This document shows positions 3,104 to 40,718 of a DNA stretch of 41,126 nt, piece after piece. The position numbers and the translations under genes were made by a program. Below the pieces are notes generated by a model. The model did no database searches. It saw only the letters and a list, made by a program, of their open reading frames with translations, and was not told the DNA's origin. The stretch is taken from the IMG/VR virus record IMGVR_UViG_3300032134_000127, positions 1-41,126 of that record; one strand, given 5' to 3'. The stretch is from a virus. Position 1 is the stretch's first letter. Every line of letters begins with the position of its first letter.

Positions 3104-3189
3104 GGAGGGGTGGCCGAGTGGTTAAAGGCAGCAGACTGTAAATCTGCCCTCATTAGAGTACGAAGGTTCGAATCCTTCCCCCTCCACCA
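3104..3189 (+). tRNA. tRNA-Tyr (GTA anticodon)
   Basis: This 86-nt class II tRNA has acceptor strands GGAGGGG and CCCCTCC followed by A and an encoded CCA. The anticodon arm AGACTGTAAATCT places GTA in the loop. A long variable arm is present, and the T arm reads GAAGGTTCGAATCCTTC. The 3' part of the gene from 3134 is identical to the prophage attachment core, so in the lysogen its 3' half is supplied by phage DNA and the tRNA stays intact. Confidence 0.97.
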
Positions 3190-3190
3190 G
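3134..3190 (+). repeat. attL core (57-bp direct repeat, tRNA-Tyr 3' part)
   Basis: The sequence from GACTGTAAATCTG to CCACCAG is identical to 40662-40718. The flanking bases differ immediately outside on both sides (A versus G before it, CCG versus GCG after it), so the core length is exact. It spans the anticodon stem, variable arm, T arm, acceptor strand and one base beyond CCA. Confidence 0.95.
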
Positions 3191-3409: not shown

Positions 3410-4699
3410 ATGTCAGTACACAAACAGGTTACACCGAAATGGCGCCCGAGCCGTAAACGCTGGGTCGTCGACACGCGCAGCCGCGGCGTCGTCAAGCATG
3501 ACGGCAATGCCAAGGGCGGCGTCGAGTTCTTCGAGACGAAGGACGCGGCGCTTGCCGCAGCTGCTTTGGTCAATGCTGCCCAGGCGACCGGCGGCGTCAT
3601 CACCGACGCCGAGTCCGGCACGCTCGAGGCGGCGTTTGTAATTTTCAAGGCGCGCGTCGAAGCACGGCGTGACGAGAAGAAGTCGATCTGCCCGCGCTAC
3701 GCCCGCACCCTGATCAACGACGCTCGCGTCTGGCTGTTTGATGGCGACGAGCCGCGCGACACTGCCAAGCTAAAATGCAAGTCGATCACCTCGGCCGACT
3801 TGATTGCGATCATCGAGGATGCCGGCTGGAGCGTCGACAACGCCCGCAAGAAGCGCGCTGCACTGCGCGGCGTGTTTCAAGCGGCCGAGGATCAGAAGTG
3901 GTGCTTGCCGGCGAATCGTCCGACCGAGTCCGTTCACCTGGAGAATTCCAAGTACGACAAGACCGAGTTGGAAATCGAGGACGATGCCGCGGCCGAGCGG
4001 CAGATGATCGCGGCGTTCGAGCCGGCTAACATCCGCAGCATTTACGAGCACGCGATCGCGACACATGACGTGCCAGTCGTCGATAAGGATGGCAGCGTGC
4101 TGCGTCAGGCCGGCTGTATAGGGCTCACTATGATGTTCGCGGCGCTCACCGGCCTGCGCTGGGGCGAGCAGGCAGCGCTCAAATGGAAAAACGTCGACCT
4201 CGACCGCCGCCGTGTCAATGTTATGACCAGCATGCGCTGGGCCGACGGCGGCAGTTGGGAAGTCAATGTGCCGAAGCGCACCGCCAGCGTGCGTACAGTG
4301 CCGCTGACGCATGATCTCGTCGCTGCGCTCAAGGCGTGGAAGCTGCGCAGCCCGGCATCAGCTGCCGAGGATCGTGTGTTCATGGGGGCTCGCGGTGAAC
4401 CTCTCACCAGCAGCAGTTATCATTTGCGCCTGCTGCACCACTCCTGCGATGCGGTGGACAGCATCCGCATTCGCTGGCACTGGCTGCGCCACTTTTATGC
4501 CAGTGTTCTGGTCGACGCCTACCGGCCGTCATCGGACAAAAATGATCTGAGCAATGACCGTACCTGGAACAAAATTTCTCGCCTCATGGGTCACGCCAAC
4601 GTGCAGATCACGTTCAAGCATTATGTCCATTACCTGGATGATTGCGAGGCCGATGAGGAGCTCGCCGACGTGCTCGAGGCGCAGATGAACCGTCGATAG
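3410..4699 (+). CDS. int: Phage tyrosine recombinase (integrase)
   Basis: This 429-residue site-specific recombinase catalyses integration at tRNA-Tyr and, with a directionality factor, excision. Catalytic residues are visible: Arg250 in ALTGLRWGE, Lys279 in NVPKRTASVRTVPL, the H-x-L-R-H box WHWLRH (His357, Arg360, His361), the MGH box (His395), and the probable nucleophile Tyr405 in TFKHYVHYL. The N-terminal region (about 1-80) would bind arm-type DNA, and residues about 65-170 form the core-binding domain. The start is fixed by GGAGAAG just before ATG. It sits 220 bp from attL, the usual place for a tRNA-targeting integrase, and reads into the prophage. Confidence 0.95.
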   Translation: MSVHKQVTPKWRPSRKRWVVDTRSRGVVKHDGNAKGGVEFFETKDAALAAAALVNAAQATGGVITDAESGTLEAAFVIFKARVEARRDEKKSICPRYARTLINDARVWLFDGDEPRDTAKLKCKSITSADLIAIIEDAGWSVDNARKKRAALRGVFQAAEDQKWCLPANRPTESVHLENSKYDKTELEIEDDAAAERQMIAAFEPANIRSIYEHAIATHDVPVVDKDGSVLRQAGCIGLTMMFAALTGLRWGEQAALKWKNVDLDRRRVNVMTSMRWADGGSWEVNVPKRTASVRTVPLTHDLVAALKAWKLRSPASAAEDRVFMGARGEPLTSSSYHLRLLHHSCDAVDSIRIRWHWLRHFYASVLVDAYRPSSDKNDLSNDRTWNKISRLMGHANVQITFKHYVHYLDDCEADEELADVLEAQMNRR

Positions 4700-4862: not shown

Positions 4863-6059
4863 CTAGACCTCTACGCCCTTTGAACGCAGAATGTGAAGCT
4901 CAACCGCCTGGTGAAGAGTTGTCCAGTGGCCGCGGGCCTTGCCGATCTGGTCAGGCTTGCGGCCGTAGATCGCTACGGCGTCCTTCGTCTGCCGGGCGCA
5001 TTCGGGGCCGACACTGCGCCAAAGCTCCAGCACCGAGTCAAAGCCGTCAATCCATTCTGCCTGCTGGGTCTTGCGGTTGATCCGCACCTTGTTGCGAAAC
5101 GCCGCCAGAATTGGATAGGTCGCGCCCTTGGTCAGCTGATAACTTGAGCCGGGAAGCGCGGCAAACGGGAAGCTGTAGCGGCCCTTCCGCTTCCAGCGAA
5201 TGATGTCAAGAGCGCCGGCTTTGCCGAGCGCAGCCGTGTTGTAGACATCGCGAAAATTATGCTTGATGTAGTCGTGAAGGACTAGGGCGCCACGCAGCAG
5301 CGGCCGCAGCTTATGATAAGTTGAATCGTCGAGATTGTCTTTGTGGAAGTCGAAATCCGCCGCAAACTTGTTTGTTGCCGTCGAAATTTTCTCGTAAGCA
5401 TGCACCGGGTGACGGCCCGAGTCGTTTGGATAGTCGATGATATTCACCGCCTCGAGAATGCAGATCACCTCGCGCACATCGACGAACCCCCGATCGCTTT
5501 CGTTCCAGGCAATCAAATTAAAATACATCTCGTTTCGAAGCTCGTCTTTTATCCAATCGAACTTGCCGTCGAGGTTTGCAAGGCTATGCGCCTTGACCTG
5601 GATGCCGGTGTTAAGCCCGCGCGACATATCTGTTCGGAGTGTTTGGCACACACCCGTGCGAACCTGGAACTCGACATACTGGTGATCGGGCAGCGCCTCG
5701 CCCTGCGCTTCGCAAATGATTGCATATGTGTGCGCGCCGTCGGCGATGCCTTCATCATCGGCGCAGTGGATCTCATAGTTGTGACTGTTGATCCTCCGCA
5801 CCTTATTTGCCAAGCAAATGATGCCTCGGTTCATCAAGTCGAAGGAGCCGTCAACTGACCGATCGCGGCCCATCAGACTGTCTTGAACCTCCCGATAAAC
5901 GCGCCGGTTTAAATTATTTGGATCGCGCGCGTTGGCGCCAACCGGAATGCCGGGCGGCAAATCCTTTGCACGCACGGTGAAGTGATGCTTGGTTATTTCT
6001 TTGTGAACTGGATGTTTCGAACTATAGGCCGTTTGAACAGTCAACCTAATTACGGTCAT
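4863..6059 (-). CDS. AIPR-like protein (abortive infection phage resistance family)
   Basis: This 398-residue protein has the hallmark pattern of AIPR proteins (PF10592) near residues 70-115. DLMNRGIICLANKV is followed by a short strand and then EGIADGAHTYAII, corresponding to the family's 'NNGI...NGxQT' segments. Related folds occur in DGQHR/DndB-like proteins. Named members act in abortive infection, though the biochemical activity is poorly known and relatives occur in many phages. The ribosome binding site GGAGGAG lies seven bases before ATG. The start overlaps the end of the DUF6378-like gene by 14 bp, so it is the last long gene of the leftward operon. It could protect the lysogen against other phages or serve the phage itself. 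The sequence does not decide. Confidence 0.6.
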   Translation of the reverse strand: MTVIRLTVQTAYSSKHPVHKEITKHHFTVRAKDLPPGIPVGANARDPNNLNRRVYREVQDSLMGRDRSVDGSFDLMNRGIICLANKVRRINSHNYEIHCADDEGIADGAHTYAIICEAQGEALPDHQYVEFQVRTGVCQTLRTDMSRGLNTGIQVKAHSLANLDGKFDWIKDELRNEMYFNLIAWNESDRGFVDVREVICILEAVNIIDYPNDSGRHPVHAYEKISTATNKFAADFDFHKDNLDDSTYHKLRPLLRGALVLHDYIKHNFRDVYNTAALGKAGALDIIRWKRKGRYSFPFAALPGSSYQLTKGATYPILAAFRNKVRINRKTQQAEWIDGFDSVLELWRSVGPECARQTKDAVAIYGRKPDQIGKARGHWTTLHQAVELHILRSKGVEV

Positions 6060-9314: not shown

Positions 9315-10079
9315 CTATTTAGGGATGGGGGTGTTGGAGTTTTCCCACTTTCCAGTGGAGAGGCGTCCCAAGACGGCCGCGTGCTGTGCTTGAATGTCCC
9401 CTGCCTCCTGGACCAACCAGCTAATGAGCTCAAGAAATCTATAAATCGCCACTCGCGTCGGCAGCAAAAGATCGGGGAACATAAGCTCCGGCTGATGGGG
9501 CTTGGAGGAAGGTAGGTTGTTGGAGAAGCCCAACGCCGGCTCCGTATTTTCTTGTCGGCGTGACCCGCCGCCGGCCTGCCGCTCGGCGAGGCCGTAATTT
9601 ACGAGCGTCTGCACATGTTGGTCGAGCGTTATCGTTCCGTAGTTACTTTGGAAATAGTCTGGTTTTTGGCTTATGCGGACGTGCATCCCCTGATATTCTG
9701 GAACCTGACCGACCAGTAATTCCACCAACTTGTCGGTCGAAAGCGCGGTCCCCCAGCACCAACTTGACGTGATCATTTGACAGACAATCACCGTTTGCAG
9801 GGACGCAACTTCCATTAACACCGCGGTTCCAGTTCGCGCGTAGTTCAAGTTGTCCTGTGTCTGCTGATGGGAGAAATTATAAAAGTAGGCGGCTGGAAAT
9901 CGCGACAGCTCTGCCTGCCTCTGATCGACATACGGGTTTCGGGCGTATCGGTTATGAAAGCAAAAGTAGCTTTGAAGCAGTGATTTTACAGCGGGGTCAG
10001 CTAGTGGGTCGGTTGTTACTTGGCCAGCTGTTTCTGAAGTAGGCGTCGAATATGCGCTAAATGGTATTACGTTAGACAA
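9315..10079 (-). CDS. Unknown protein encoded upstream of the repressor
   Basis: About 254 residues from TTG 10079, which has a GGGGG ribosome binding site nine bases upstream (GTG 10088 is possible but sits on that site). It ends 19 bp before the repressor start, so the two genes are probably one transcript. Two clusters are Tyr/Phe/Asn-rich (LLQSYFCFHNRYARNPY, AAYFYNFSH). Near residues 160-195 the stretch QSNYGTITLDQHVQTLVNYGLAER reads like a winged helix. The C-terminal part has a helix VAIYRFLELISWLVQEAGD. I do not recognise the family. A role in the lysis/lysogeny decision is suggested only by position. Confidence 0.5.
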   Translation of the reverse strand: MSNVIPFSAYSTPTSETAGQVTTDPLADPAVKSLLQSYFCFHNRYARNPYVDQRQAELSRFPAAYFYNFSHQQTQDNLNYARTGTAVLMEVASLQTVIVCQMITSSWCWGTALSTDKLVELLVGQVPEYQGMHVRISQKPDYFQSNYGTITLDQHVQTLVNYGLAERQAGGGSRRQENTEPALGFSNNLPSSKPHQPELMFPDLLLPTRVAIYRFLELISWLVQEAGDIQAQHAAVLGRLSTGKWENSNTPIPK

Positions 10080-10125
10080 TGTGATCACCCCCCTATTTAT
10101 GCCGAATGTTACGCGGTTGTGACCT

Positions 10126-10154
10126 GTTGTACCTCCGTGTTGGTATAAGTGCAA
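10126..10154 (-). promoter_or_regulatory. Candidate promoter for the repressor transcript
   Basis: On the minus strand TTGCAC (10154-10149) and TACAAC (10131-10126) are spaced 17 bp and point to the start at 10079. The region up to 10196 must also hold the rightward early promoter. GATAAT (10175-10180) and GCTAAT (10183-10188) are possible -10 boxes, but no good -35 box is visible. Confidence 0.35.
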
Positions 10155-10196
10155 CTGAGATGTTGTTTGCGGCTGATAATGTGCTAATTCGTATTG

Positions 10197-10565
10197 ATGC
10201 TCGAAGCTGAAATTCAGATGGGTATTTGCCAGTGGCTGGCGGTTGCGCTGCCTGCAAATGCGCTCGTGCATCACAGCCCCAACGAAGGCCGTCATAGCGT
10301 GCAATATCGCGTTAAGCAGAAAAGGCTGGGCATGACTCCTGGCTGGCCGGACCTGGAGATATTTGTGCCGGCCGCCGCCTGGTTCAACCCGCCTGCCTGG
10401 GCGCCGATCTTCTTCGAAGTGAAGACGGCAAAAGGCGTGATCAGCAAGAATCAAGGCAGGGTCATCAAAGGCTTAGCGGCGATCGGTTGTTATGTGTCTG
10501 TCGTCCGATCGATCGACGAGGCGAGAGACGTGTTGGTAGATTTGGTAAAGCTCAATGCCAGCTGA
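10197..10565 (+). CDS. VRR-NUC domain nuclease
   Basis: This 122-residue stand-alone VRR-NUC protein belongs to the PD-(D/E)XK superfamily. Readable motifs are the N-terminal EAEIQMGICQWL helix with its Glu, ALVHHSPNEGRHS, the catalytic GMTPGWPDLEIF (Asp), FFEVKTAKGVISKNQG (E-x-K), and the closing VVRSIDEARDVL helix. Phage members of this type have been shown or proposed to cut Holliday or flap structures, so a role in phage recombination or replication fits. ATG at 10197 is chosen over TTG at 10194. It is the first gene of the rightward early operon and overlaps the next gene by 11 bp. Confidence 0.8.
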   Translation: MLEAEIQMGICQWLAVALPANALVHHSPNEGRHSVQYRVKQKRLGMTPGWPDLEIFVPAAAWFNPPAWAPIFFEVKTAKGVISKNQGRVIKGLAAIGCYVSVVRSIDEARDVLVDLVKLNAS

Positions 10566-11209: not shown

Positions 11210-11434
11210 ATGGAAATAGACGACAAGCAAGCCTTAATCCTCAAAGCAGTGTCAGATCATTGGGAGTTGTACGGCCAAGGGCCGACACACGACGATATGT
11301 CACGATCGCTGAACGCTAGTAAGTCGATGGTCGAGTGGCATATGCGTAAATTGCTTGCGGCCGGCATGCTCACTCGGGTGCCTGGCAGGCATTACGATTT
11401 GCGGGTGACCGAGACTGGAGCGGCGGCGCTTTGA
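11210..11434 (+). CDS. LexA-like winged-helix DNA-binding protein
   Basis: From ATG 11210 this is a 74-residue protein resembling the N-terminal DNA-binding domain of LexA without its protease part: KQALILKAVSDHWELYGQGP, THDDMSRSLNASKSMVEWHMRKLLAAGML, then a basic wing RVPGRHYDLRVTETG. AAGGGCGG precedes the start. The frame extends upstream to 11024, but that stretch is Cys-rich and unlike coding sequence. It may regulate early or late transcription. The following gene starts inside its stop codon as TTGA. The 140 bp before it (11068-11209) contain no gene I can support. Confidence 0.6.
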   Translation: MEIDDKQALILKAVSDHWELYGQGPTHDDMSRSLNASKSMVEWHMRKLLAAGMLTRVPGRHYDLRVTETGAAAL

Positions 11435-12243
11435 CCCTCCAAGTGCTTTCCCTTGGCGCTGGAGTGCAAAGCACCGTGATGGCGCTGATGGCGGCTCATG
11501 GCGAGATCAAGCCGATGCCTGACTGCGCGATCTTTGCCGACACGCAGTTTGAGCCTGGGAGCGTTTACGCGCATCTCGACTGGCTTGAAACCCAACTACC
11601 GTACCCCGTCTACCGTGTGACTGAAGGTGATTTACGGGAAGAAACTTTGCGCGGCGAGAACAAGTCGCTAAAGAACTTTCAGCCAATCCCATTTTTTACA
11701 GTGAGAGACGGTAGCCGAGGAATAGGTCGCCGCGAATGCACCAACCATTACAAGATCAAGCCTATTCGCAAGAAAATGCGGGAGCTGCTTGGTTTGCAAA
11801 AGGGCGAGCGAGCCAAGGGTGTGGTTGCTTATTCTTGGTTAGGAATTAGCACTGACGAGGCGGCGCGGATGAAGCCGTCGCGTGATGCGTGGATGCAAAA
11901 TATCTGGCCGTTAATTGATGCCGGAATGTCCCGTCAGGACTGTGTTCGCTGGTTTGAAAAGCGTTATCCGCTGCGTCCCTTGGCTAAGTCAGCGTGTATT
12001 GGATGCCCGTTTCACAATGATTCGCAATGGCGCGATATGAAAATGAATGACCCGCAGGCGTTTGAAGAGGCAACTACGTTTGATGCGGAAATTAGAGACG
12101 GAAAAGATAAAGACGGCGTTTATGTTGCGCGGTTTTTACATCGGTCATGCAAGCCGCTGGACGAAGTTGATTTCCGCAACCTGGAGGATATGGGGCAGAT
12201 AAATATGTTTAACGAAGAGTGCGAAGGGATGTGCGGGGTCTAG
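11431..12243 (+). CDS. PP-loop / PAPS-reductase-like adenine nucleotide alpha hydrolase
   Basis: This 270-residue phage member of the PAPS-reductase/PP-loop ATPase superfamily has a modified N-terminal PP-loop, SLGAGVQSTVMALMA, followed by DCAIFADTQFEP and LDWLETQLPYPVYRV as in this group. Later come RRECTNHYKIKPIRKKM and a Cys pair CIGCPFHNDSQW that may bind metal or take part in redox. Superfamily members reduce PAPS, load sulfur (DndC, IbrA, TtcA) or make queuosine precursors. Without the neighbouring genes of those pathways the substrate is unknown. The TTG start overlaps the upstream TGA (TTGA), with GGAG upstream. Many phages carry similar genes in early operons. Confidence 0.65.
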   Translation: MTLQVLSLGAGVQSTVMALMAAHGEIKPMPDCAIFADTQFEPGSVYAHLDWLETQLPYPVYRVTEGDLREETLRGENKSLKNFQPIPFFTVRDGSRGIGRRECTNHYKIKPIRKKMRELLGLQKGERAKGVVAYSWLGISTDEAARMKPSRDAWMQNIWPLIDAGMSRQDCVRWFEKRYPLRPLAKSACIGCPFHNDSQWRDMKMNDPQAFEEATTFDAEIRDGKDKDGVYVARFLHRSCKPLDEVDFRNLEDMGQINMFNEECEGMCGV

Positions 12244-12248
12244 GCGGC

Positions 12249-12776
12249 ATGTGGCTTAGTCACGATGCCACGTTACTGAGGTACGAGCTTGTCATAGCGA
12301 TTGACAACGAGCTCCCCGAGGCGCTGCTCGAGGAGCGTGTCGCCGATCGGCTTACTGGCACGTTTAGGTCAGCTGTGGATAACTTAATTGCGTGTGGTTT
12401 TGCAAAACGTGAGCGGCGCATAGAAGCTGCTAATTCAGAAGCTTCTAATAGAAGCTTCTATATATGTGCAGCAATAGAAGCTTCTATTAGAAGCGTACAC
12501 CCCGAAACTACTAAAACTAAAAGAAGCTTAGAAGCTTCCACTTCTAGAAGCGCATTTATTCGAAGCGCAATCGATCGCCGCAATTTTAACGGCGATTACC
12601 AAGCGGTGGTGAGCGGCAACAAGCCGCGACGTGATCCGTTGCAGCAATTTGCTGCCACGCTGTCACGCTCCAATGCCGCGGACTTTTTCGCACAGGTATC
12701 AAGGCTTGATGATAGACAGATCGCCGATCTCAAACGTCGAATTACACCAGCTGCTCTTAGAGGCCGCAGAAACTGA
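12249..12776 (+). CDS. Candidate replication initiator with origin repeats inside the gene
   Basis: This 175-residue protein starts at ATG 12249. Residues about 8-60 resemble a winged-helix segment (ELVIAIDNELPEALLEERVADRL, TFRSAVDNLIACGFAKRERR). Residues 60-110 are encoded by a DNA repeat array and read as alternating EAS and RS units. The C-terminal part is helical (DPLQQFAATLSRSNAADFFAQVSRLDDRQIADLKRR). The design of a DNA-binding N-terminus followed by repeats within the coding sequence is that of the lambda O gene with ori lambda. Sequence similarity to O proteins is not obvious, so the function rests on the repeat array and on position just before the late genes. Confidence 0.5.
   Translation: MWLSHDATLLRYELVIAIDNELPEALLEERVADRLTGTFRSAVDNLIACGFAKRERRIEAANSEASNRSFYICAAIEASIRSVHPETTKTKRSLEASTSRSAFIRSAIDRRNFNGDYQAVVSGNKPRRDPLQQFAATLSRSNAADFFAQVSRLDDRQIADLKRRITPAALRGRRN
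12423..12566 (+). repeat. GAAGC/AAGCTT iteron array, probable phage origin of replication
   Basis: Eight copies of GAAGC start at 12423, 12438, 12451, 12477, 12490, 12523, 12531 and 12547, with a ninth CGAAGC at 12562. Three form the 10-bp palindrome AGAAGCTTCT (12437-12446, 12450-12459, 12476-12485), and five AAGCTT hexamers occur in about 100 bp. Starts at 12438, 12451, 12477 and 12490 fall on a 13-bp grid. An AT-rich gap (TCTATATATG) lies inside. The motif is read in two different codon frames of the gene (as EAS and as RS), so it is conserved as DNA and not as a peptide repeat. This fits iterons bound by the protein that contains them. Confidence 0.6.
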
Positions 12777-13116
12777 GCGGCGCCTACCAGCAGCGATGAT
12801 GAAGCCGCAGGGCTGTTATTGGCCCGAGGTGCTGCCCGACTGGTTGGCATATGCCGATGATTCGGAGCCACGCTTGTCGCCGGCTAATGTTCGCCAGGTC
12901 GATGACTACGATCTCACGTTGCGCATCGTGCTGAGCCAGCCCGACAACGATCGAAGGCGGCTGATGTGGGCCGCTGCTCATAGTGCCGTGTTCCGACAGC
13001 GGGGCATTGCATGGCGAAGGATTGCCAAGATCAGGCATTGTCATCCAGCCAAGGTCAAAAGAGATTACGAAGCAGCGCTGGTCGACACTGTGCTCAGATG
13101 GAATGGCGATCGATGA
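12709..13116 (+). CDS. DUF6362-like phage protein
   Basis: About 135 residues from ATG 12709, which has AAGG just upstream and overlaps the previous gene by 68 bp. A start at ATG 12796 (KPQGCYWPEVLPDWL) is possible. The pattern ERRLPAAMMKPQGCYWPEVL, a mid-section DYDLTLRIVLSQPDNDRRRLMWAAA, and RGIAWRRIAKIRHCHPAKVKRDYEAAL (a helix-turn-helix-like end) resembles DUF6362 proteins, found in phages between early genes and terminase. Such a position often belongs to late-gene regulators, but no activity is shown for the family. It couples to the next gene through ATGA. Confidence 0.55.
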   Translation: MIDRSPISNVELHQLLLEAAETERRLPAAMMKPQGCYWPEVLPDWLAYADDSEPRLSPANVRQVDDYDLTLRIVLSQPDNDRRRLMWAAAHSAVFRQRGIAWRRIAKIRHCHPAKVKRDYEAALVDTVLRWNGDR

Positions 13117-13489: not shown

Positions 13490-13954
13490 ATGGCCCGCAT
13501 GATTGATAAGCCGCGGATGCTGCTGATTTGCGACGAGCTCGCGAAGGGCAAGTCGCTGCGGAGTATCTGCGACAATAACAAGGCGCAGCCTCATTGGGTG
13601 ACTGTCTTGCAGGCTGTACAACGTGATGATGATCTCTACGAAATGTACGCCAAAGCTCGTGCGATCGGCGCCGAGGTACTGGCTGATGAGATGCACGACC
13701 TTGCCAGGCAACCGCTGCCGGACGATCTAGAGTCGAAGCATATGAATGCTGAAGTGCAGCGCCGTCGCCTCGAGGTGGACACGTTGAAGTGGACGTTCGC
13801 CAGGCAACAGCCTCGCGGCGTGAGGCATAAAGCGGCCGACGTTGATGCGCCTAGCCAGGTGACGTTGGTCTGGCAGGTGGATAACGAAGACGAGCCAGCC
13901 AAGCCCGGTGAGGTTGTCAAGCTGGTGACCAGCGAAGGCGACGAGGTGTCATAG
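13490..13954 (+). CDS. terS: Terminase small subunit
   Basis: This 154-residue protein has the phage small-terminase layout. The N-terminal helix-turn-helix reads LLICDELAKGKSLRSICDNN and PHWVTVLQAVQRDDDLYEMYAKARAIGAEVLADEMHDLA, then a helical section NAEVQRRRLEVDTLKWTFARQQPRGVRHK, as in the Sf6 gp1-like family. TerS forms a ring that recognises the packaging site and regulates the large subunit. The C-terminal acidic tail would contact TerL. The ribosome binding site is TTGAGGA, seven to ten bases before ATG. It is the first gene of the rightward late region. Confidence 0.82.
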   Translation: MARMIDKPRMLLICDELAKGKSLRSICDNNKAQPHWVTVLQAVQRDDDLYEMYAKARAIGAEVLADEMHDLARQPLPDDLESKHMNAEVQRRRLEVDTLKWTFARQQPRGVRHKAADVDAPSQVTLVWQVDNEDEPAKPGEVVKLVTSEGDEVS

Positions 13955-16950: not shown

Positions 16951-16985
16951 CCGCACCCCCGCGAAACAACCCGCATTCGAATTGC

Positions 16986-40661: not shown

Positions 40662-40718
40662 GACTGTAAATCTGCCCTCATTAGAGTACGAAGGTTCGAA
40701 TCCTTCCCCCTCCACCAG
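40662..40718 (+). repeat. attR core (57-bp direct repeat, orphan tRNA-Tyr 3' part)
   Basis: Identical to 3134-3190. Here it lacks the 5' half of the tRNA, so no functional tRNA can form. It marks the right boundary of the prophage, and the following GCGCTAATTG is host DNA that originally lay directly behind tRNA-Tyr. Confidence 0.95.

Follow-up and report, generated by a model that had tools for sequence, protein, structure and literature searches.

The window analysed here, 41,126 nucleotides long, is an IMG/VR virus record (IMGVR_UViG_3300032134_000127) that holds a complete marine prophage together with its host flanks. The prophage is bounded by a 57-bp exact repeat and measures about 37.5 kb between the two copies; the window phage is an intact 37.5-kb temperate phage. 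On its right side come a tRNA-Gly and then the beginning of an EF-Tu-like gene. The integrase gene lies at 3410-4699, and next to it, on the minus strand at 4863-6059, a protein of the AIPR family (PF10592, linked to abortive infection) is encoded, possibly a prophage-borne defence gene. A 379-aa open frame with no family match (9315-10454, minus strand) occupies the place where early promoters would be expected and may be an antisense chance frame. The terminase genes lie at 13490 and 14976; the portal gene, of podovirus type, is at 16982.

The gene of interest, here called the array gene, belongs to a rightward early operon, in which it stands between a PAPS-reductase-like gene and a gene of the DUF6362 family; Cro/CI-type proteins are encoded nearby, and terS, whose product is Sf6-like, follows about 0.9 kb downstream of the array. 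The slot directly 5' of the array gene, PAPS-reductase-like in the window (11431-12243), carries variable cargo in relatives, with methyltransferase-like genes in others (slots compared: L004:119-613, L162:6760-8003 and L012:3442-4359). The main features are:

3134..3190, attachment repeat at the left prophage end, at tRNA-Tyr (57-bp exact repeat)
12249..12776, plus strand, array gene, 175 aa (P0001), proposed initiator (open reading frame; nine-member alignment A6; AlphaFold)
12249..12470, plus strand, codons of the predicted winged helix-turn-helix, residues 1-74 (AlphaFold block with pLDDT 56-88 and the helix/strand order of a wHTH)
12374..12382, minus strand, perfect DnaA box TTATCCACA, 37 bp before the array; no other perfect box occurs in the window
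12420..12566, palindromic iteron array with nine GAAGC units, codons 58-106 of the array gene
12591..12773, plus strand, codons of the predicted helical C-terminal domain, residues 115-175 (alignment and AlphaFold)
12715..13116, plus strand, DUF6362 gene (PF19889, phrog_6836), its provisional start placed within the 3' part of the array gene
40662..40718, attachment repeat at the right prophage end (57-bp exact repeat)

The array-gene protein, for which an alternative upstream GTG start at 12219 is possible, has no sequence match in Pfam, PHROG or the PDB, and its family likewise has none in Pfam or PHROG. AlphaFold with nine sequences reached a mean pLDDT of 73, against only 52 with four sequences, and the model has the order alpha-beta-alpha-alpha-beta-beta at residues 5-74, low confidence at about 81-111 and helices from 115 onwards. 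Winged helices of the MarR/MecI type align with residues 1-87 (VIA-align Z about 9), and the N-terminus is thus predicted to be a winged helix, by fold class only, since this is a widespread fold that shows no kinship. Foldseek gave no match at E < 0.001, hence we claim only the class; replication protein O and replisome organizer entries in its viral list (E 0.04-0.09) were too weak to be used. The C-terminal domain is the best conserved part of the family, with the motif YxxVVxGK..RR.PL. This layout implies that the array codons 58-106 would encode the wing loop and a disordered linker. The earlier note had spoken of a replication gene; no profile library names the gene, and the label stands as a probable function.

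A palindromic array selected as DNA

All nine plus-strand GAAGC units described earlier are present (12423, 12438, 12451, 12477, 12490, 12523, 12531, 12547 and 12562), as are the three exact AGAAGCTTCT palindromes at 12437, 12450 and 12476. A fourth GAAGCTTC lies at 12531, and all four GAAGCTTC of the window fall inside the array. The 13-bp grid noted for several of the units is only partly there, the steps between successive GAAGC being 15, 13, 26, 13, 33, 8, 16 and 15, and the unit is better described as a 14-bp palindrome, TTAGAAGCTTCTAA, which is clearest in the relative L004. The five window sites that match it in at least 12 of 14 positions are all in the array, and one chance-level site (11/14) lies elsewhere. 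The sites and the inverted repeat that spans some of them are:

12420..12433, site 1, ATAGAAGCTGCTAA, 12/14 to TTAGAAGCTTCTAA
12435..12448, site 2, TCAGAAGCTTCTAA, 13/14
12448..12461, site 3, ATAGAAGCTTCTAT, 12/14, perfect palindrome
12474..12487, site 4, ATAGAAGCTTCTAT, 12/14, perfect palindrome
12487..12500, site 5, half-site TTAGAAGC-GTACAC
12528..12541, site 6, TTAGAAGCTTCCAC, 12/14
12441..12461 and 12474..12494, left and right arms of a 21-bp perfect inverted repeat

The 21-bp inverted repeat, which folds with z = -5.7, and the DnaA box are both additions to the earlier description.

That selection acts on the DNA, as had been suggested from the reading of the unit in two codon frames (EAS and RS(F)), is borne out by recoding. 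Recoding the unchanged peptide 10,000 times never produced four GAAGCTTC or 13 half-sites, whether within-gene or phage-wide codon use was applied. A motif-free test, in which repeated 8-mers on the two strands are counted and compared with synonymous permutations within the gene, put the array gene at z = 19 among the 36 window genes and the other 35 at 2.8 or less. As a control, lambda O, which holds a proven origin, was matched by 0 of 1000 permutations with 7-mers and also by 0 with 8-mers, and lambda P by 558 of 1000 (693 with 8-mers). The full-length family members beat synonymous permutation in nine cases out of nine (0-3 of 1000), and the ten DUF6362 genes taken as controls fail the test (51-982 of 1000).

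The array is 63% AT against 45% for the window, which places it within the top 0.7% of windows, and in 12 of 13 loci the array coincides with a local AT maximum that ranks in the top 2% of 100-bp windows. GC skew has no clear turn at the array.

The codons of the DnaA box read Ala-Val-Asp-Asn and belong to helix 3 of the window protein. A perfect box is also found in L004, L151 and L177, at the matching place, and in L159; L012, L029 and L155 have a box with one mismatch, and no DnaA-like box was found within the gene in L150 and L153. In the window, L004, L151 and L177 the perfect box lies in the alpha-3 codons and in L159 in those of alpha-2; the helix-2 box of L159 and L012 is displaced by 13 residues when the SHDA motif, which the proteins share, is taken as reference. 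Perfect boxes thus recur at two non-homologous positions of the protein. Given the peptide AVDN, codon use alone would yield the box with a probability of 0.029. The box was sought after the sequences had been seen, which makes L177, a later find, the less biased test. The lambda origin is known to have DnaA-box-like sequences nearby (PMC3985674), and the origins of iteron plasmids commonly contain DnaA boxes (PMC3155836).

Relatives with their own repeat types

Protein search alone brought up one relative, L004 (76% identity in the best segment), and a protein search of the genome contigs and phages collection found no array-gene relative. The L004 array has six GAAGCTTC palindromes and three sites that are perfect 14-mers, and it differs from that of the window by in-frame indels that add or drop units. 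A DNA pattern search led to L012 (with its sister L021), which has the same palindrome at the same gene position and a protein only about 20-25% identical to that of the window; L029 is a close relative of L012. A looser GAAGC pattern scan gave matches that were mostly chance, and L010, with four sites, proved to be an unrelated repeat block and no relative of the array gene. The block itself (L010:1637-1760, in an unrelated viral contig) is a dense noncoding cluster of TTAGACGGCTCTAA-like and TTAGAAGCTTCTAA palindromes.

The downstream DUF6362 gene, a constant neighbour in relatives, was then used as an anchor and gave 13 loci. The gene before it is an array-gene homologue in L150, L151/L152, L153, L155 and L159, each with linker-codon repeats of its own: CGAAGCTTCG with an 8-bp tandem step, AGCTATATATAGCT, three copies of AGCTACATGAAGCTA spaced 15 bp, AAGCTCTTATAAGCA with the same 15-bp spacing, and repeats of a TATAAGCTTATA type, which are weak. 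A final scan with a four-member alignment, in which arrays were not a criterion, added L177 and L179, both with a DUF6362 frame next. In L177 the repeats are of the AGCTAATAGC kind and the DnaA box is perfect; L179, which is truncated at the 5' side, has about eleven copies of the 15-bp TCAGCTAAGCTAGAT in a linker whose peptide is itself repetitive. Both gave 0 of 1000 in permutation. The array lies upstream of the DUF6362 gene in all eleven linker-bearing members, and the eleven arrays have a common core: AGCT is enriched in ten of them and AAGC in all eleven, with low counts in some. A CCCC-AAAA stretch common to several arrays was dropped, because a Pro-Lys peptide that these members have in common is encoded there, in one frame throughout.

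The search for the same repeats in related phages, which the earlier note had recommended, therefore finds arrays, though with a repeat sequence that varies by lineage. The outcome that the note had named as telling against an origin, a peptide kept while the repeats are lost, is reversed here: the repeats persist where the peptide has fallen to about 20-30% identity.

In four shorter relatives (L157, L161, L158 and L160) this gene encodes no winged helix. The AGC-type repeats of L157 and L161 lie 5' of an ORF of 59-62 residues, and L158 and L160 have a short ORF in which the in-gene repeat count is not significant. At L157:4600-4800 and L161:4600-4810 the AGC-type repeats are AT-rich and lie outside any clear gene, with a terminator-like hairpin mid-way, followed by the short ORF and DUF6362. 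These four relatives imply either that the winged helix is not the reader in every lineage or that the system has changed there. Repeat type does not track winged-helix similarity: the winged helix of the window protein is at least as close to that of L151, which has another repeat, as to that of L012, which has the same one, on short alignments that are unreliable in detail.

A probable replication origin and its known counterparts

Classically, an iteron origin is made up of iterons, AT-rich DNA and a DnaA box, as found here. We therefore consider it probable that the array and the adjoining DnaA box form the lytic replication origin of this phage, located inside the gene of its initiator, and the phage origin proposed in the earlier note gains in support. 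The absence of the usual replication parts from the records tested points the same way: four of the usual replication families gave no match (DnaB, IstB/DnaC and Phage_rep_O, in 13 records, some of them fragments), and none of the window proteins scanned belongs to a replication family. Weighing against this reading are the GC skew, with no clear turn at the array, the four relatives whose gene has no winged helix, the poor fit between repeat type and winged-helix similarity, and the two members (L150 and L153) with no DnaA-like box in the gene.

Such an origin might work as follows. Transcription would yield the 175-aa protein, whose N-terminal winged-helix dimers would bind palindromic half-sites with an (A/T)AGC core. 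Several dimers would assemble with host DnaA, bound 37 bp away, into a nucleoprotein complex, and this would open the AT-rich array; the C-terminal domain, perhaps also the DUF6362 protein, would recruit the host helicase. As the repeats are codons of a putatively disordered linker, they could grow, shrink and change sequence in frame.

The array may instead be an origin read by another protein, be it that of DUF6362, a different HTH protein of the phage or a host factor. We regard this as possible if doubtful; it overlaps with the reading of an origin within its own initiator gene, the two are not exclusive and our confidences do not sum to one. It is favoured by the four relatives that keep AGC-type repeats without the winged helix, by the independence of iteron type from winged-helix similarity and by DUF6362 being always adjacent. 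Yet the DUF6362 protein is conserved (44-59% identity) across lineages whose repeats differ, and a winged helix adjoins the array in every strong-array lineage. DUF6362 is a possible partner of the array-gene protein; a literature search returned no mention of the family. In an unrelated gut phage, L171 (MT837927.1, 3498-4527), DUF6362 directly follows a DUF6291/primosomal-like gene whose linker has AAGCAAA-type repeats, a neighbour that hints weakly at a replication role for DUF6362.

A bolder and rather unlikely model, which we offer as speculation, has a rapidly diversifying array in the disordered linker of a fast-evolving protein, which a winged-helix initiator from a new family would open in concert with host DnaA and the DUF6362 protein, its repeat type serving as an incompatibility tag between co-resident prophages, with the winged helix lost in some lineages and the array there read by another protein.

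It is unlikely that the array is a pac-type packaging start read by the small terminase. Packaging sites may lie within genes, terS is close by, and an Sf6-like TerS comes after DUF6362 in the members checked. TerS, however, is well conserved (56-84% identity to that of the window) between lineages whose repeats have been replaced wholesale, and its conservation, like that of DUF6362, while repeats and array gene change argues against TerS as the reader. The sites, moreover, sit in the array gene with none in terS, and a DnaA box beside an AT-rich array suits an origin better. A cluster of operators for the protein itself or for a phage repressor, with no role in replication, is quite improbable: repressor-operator pairs are usually built from a winged helix and palindromes such as these 14-bp ones, and Cro/CI-type proteins are encoded nearby, but the sites lie deep in the gene, a promoter scan of the array region gave no match, and no TTAGAAGCTTCTAA site of at least 11/14 occurs upstream of the operon or between divergent genes. 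That the repeats merely follow from a low-complexity EAS/SAKLD linker is highly improbable, for all the predicted disorder of that linker and the repetitive peptide of L179, as permutation with a fixed peptide abolishes the signal, the unit is read in two frames and lineages that share the DNA unit differ in peptide.

With the origin most probably lying within the array gene, the family gains a likely function for its unannotated protein, and DUF6362, adjacent in all these phages, gains a lead. The one homologous place is occupied by at least seven repeat types, a natural series that would allow one to study how initiator and site change together.

A close parallel is lambda O, whose design, as had been claimed, is recognisable here: a predicted winged helix is followed by iterons in the linker codons and then by the C-terminal domain, in AT-rich DNA. 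Lambda likewise has a winged-helix-type initiator with inverted-repeat iterons in the linker (codons 117-145 of 299) and an AT-rich origin that lies between the immunity region and the terminase genes. In the O proteins of Stx phages two extra iterons add 13 residues (PMC7466680), an in-frame gain like the indels between the window and L004. Here, in contrast, the iterons differ and change fast, the gene in the downstream place, DUF6362, does not resemble lambda P, and the array has a perfect DnaA box at a distance of 37 bp. Nor is there sequence or profile similarity to O, in agreement with the earlier impression: PF04492 has no match in six frames of 13 records or by hmmscan of the members, and hhalign to lambda O gave a probability of 0.1. 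The suggestion that the pair of initiator and iterons may be new thus holds at the level of sequence, the initiator being a putative one.

The repABC plasmids also have an origin within an initiator gene, as proposed here, and it is likewise AT-rich. In p42d of Rhizobium etli, oriV lies inside repC, where the AT-rich part is essential and silent mutations destroy the origin; this repC has neither iterons nor DnaA boxes (PMC3155836), unlike the array gene, and no member of our family matches a Pfam Rep family. In the iteron plasmids P1, F, pSC101, RK2 and R6K the origin usually lies beside the rep gene rather than inside it, and our units are palindromes, again with no Rep-family match; what these plasmids share with the array is that iterons, a DnaA box and AT-rich DNA adjoin one another. 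By the evidence of sequence, then, an unrelated family would join the short list of initiators with the origin in their own gene (lambda O and RepC), and such a shared design would be convergence.
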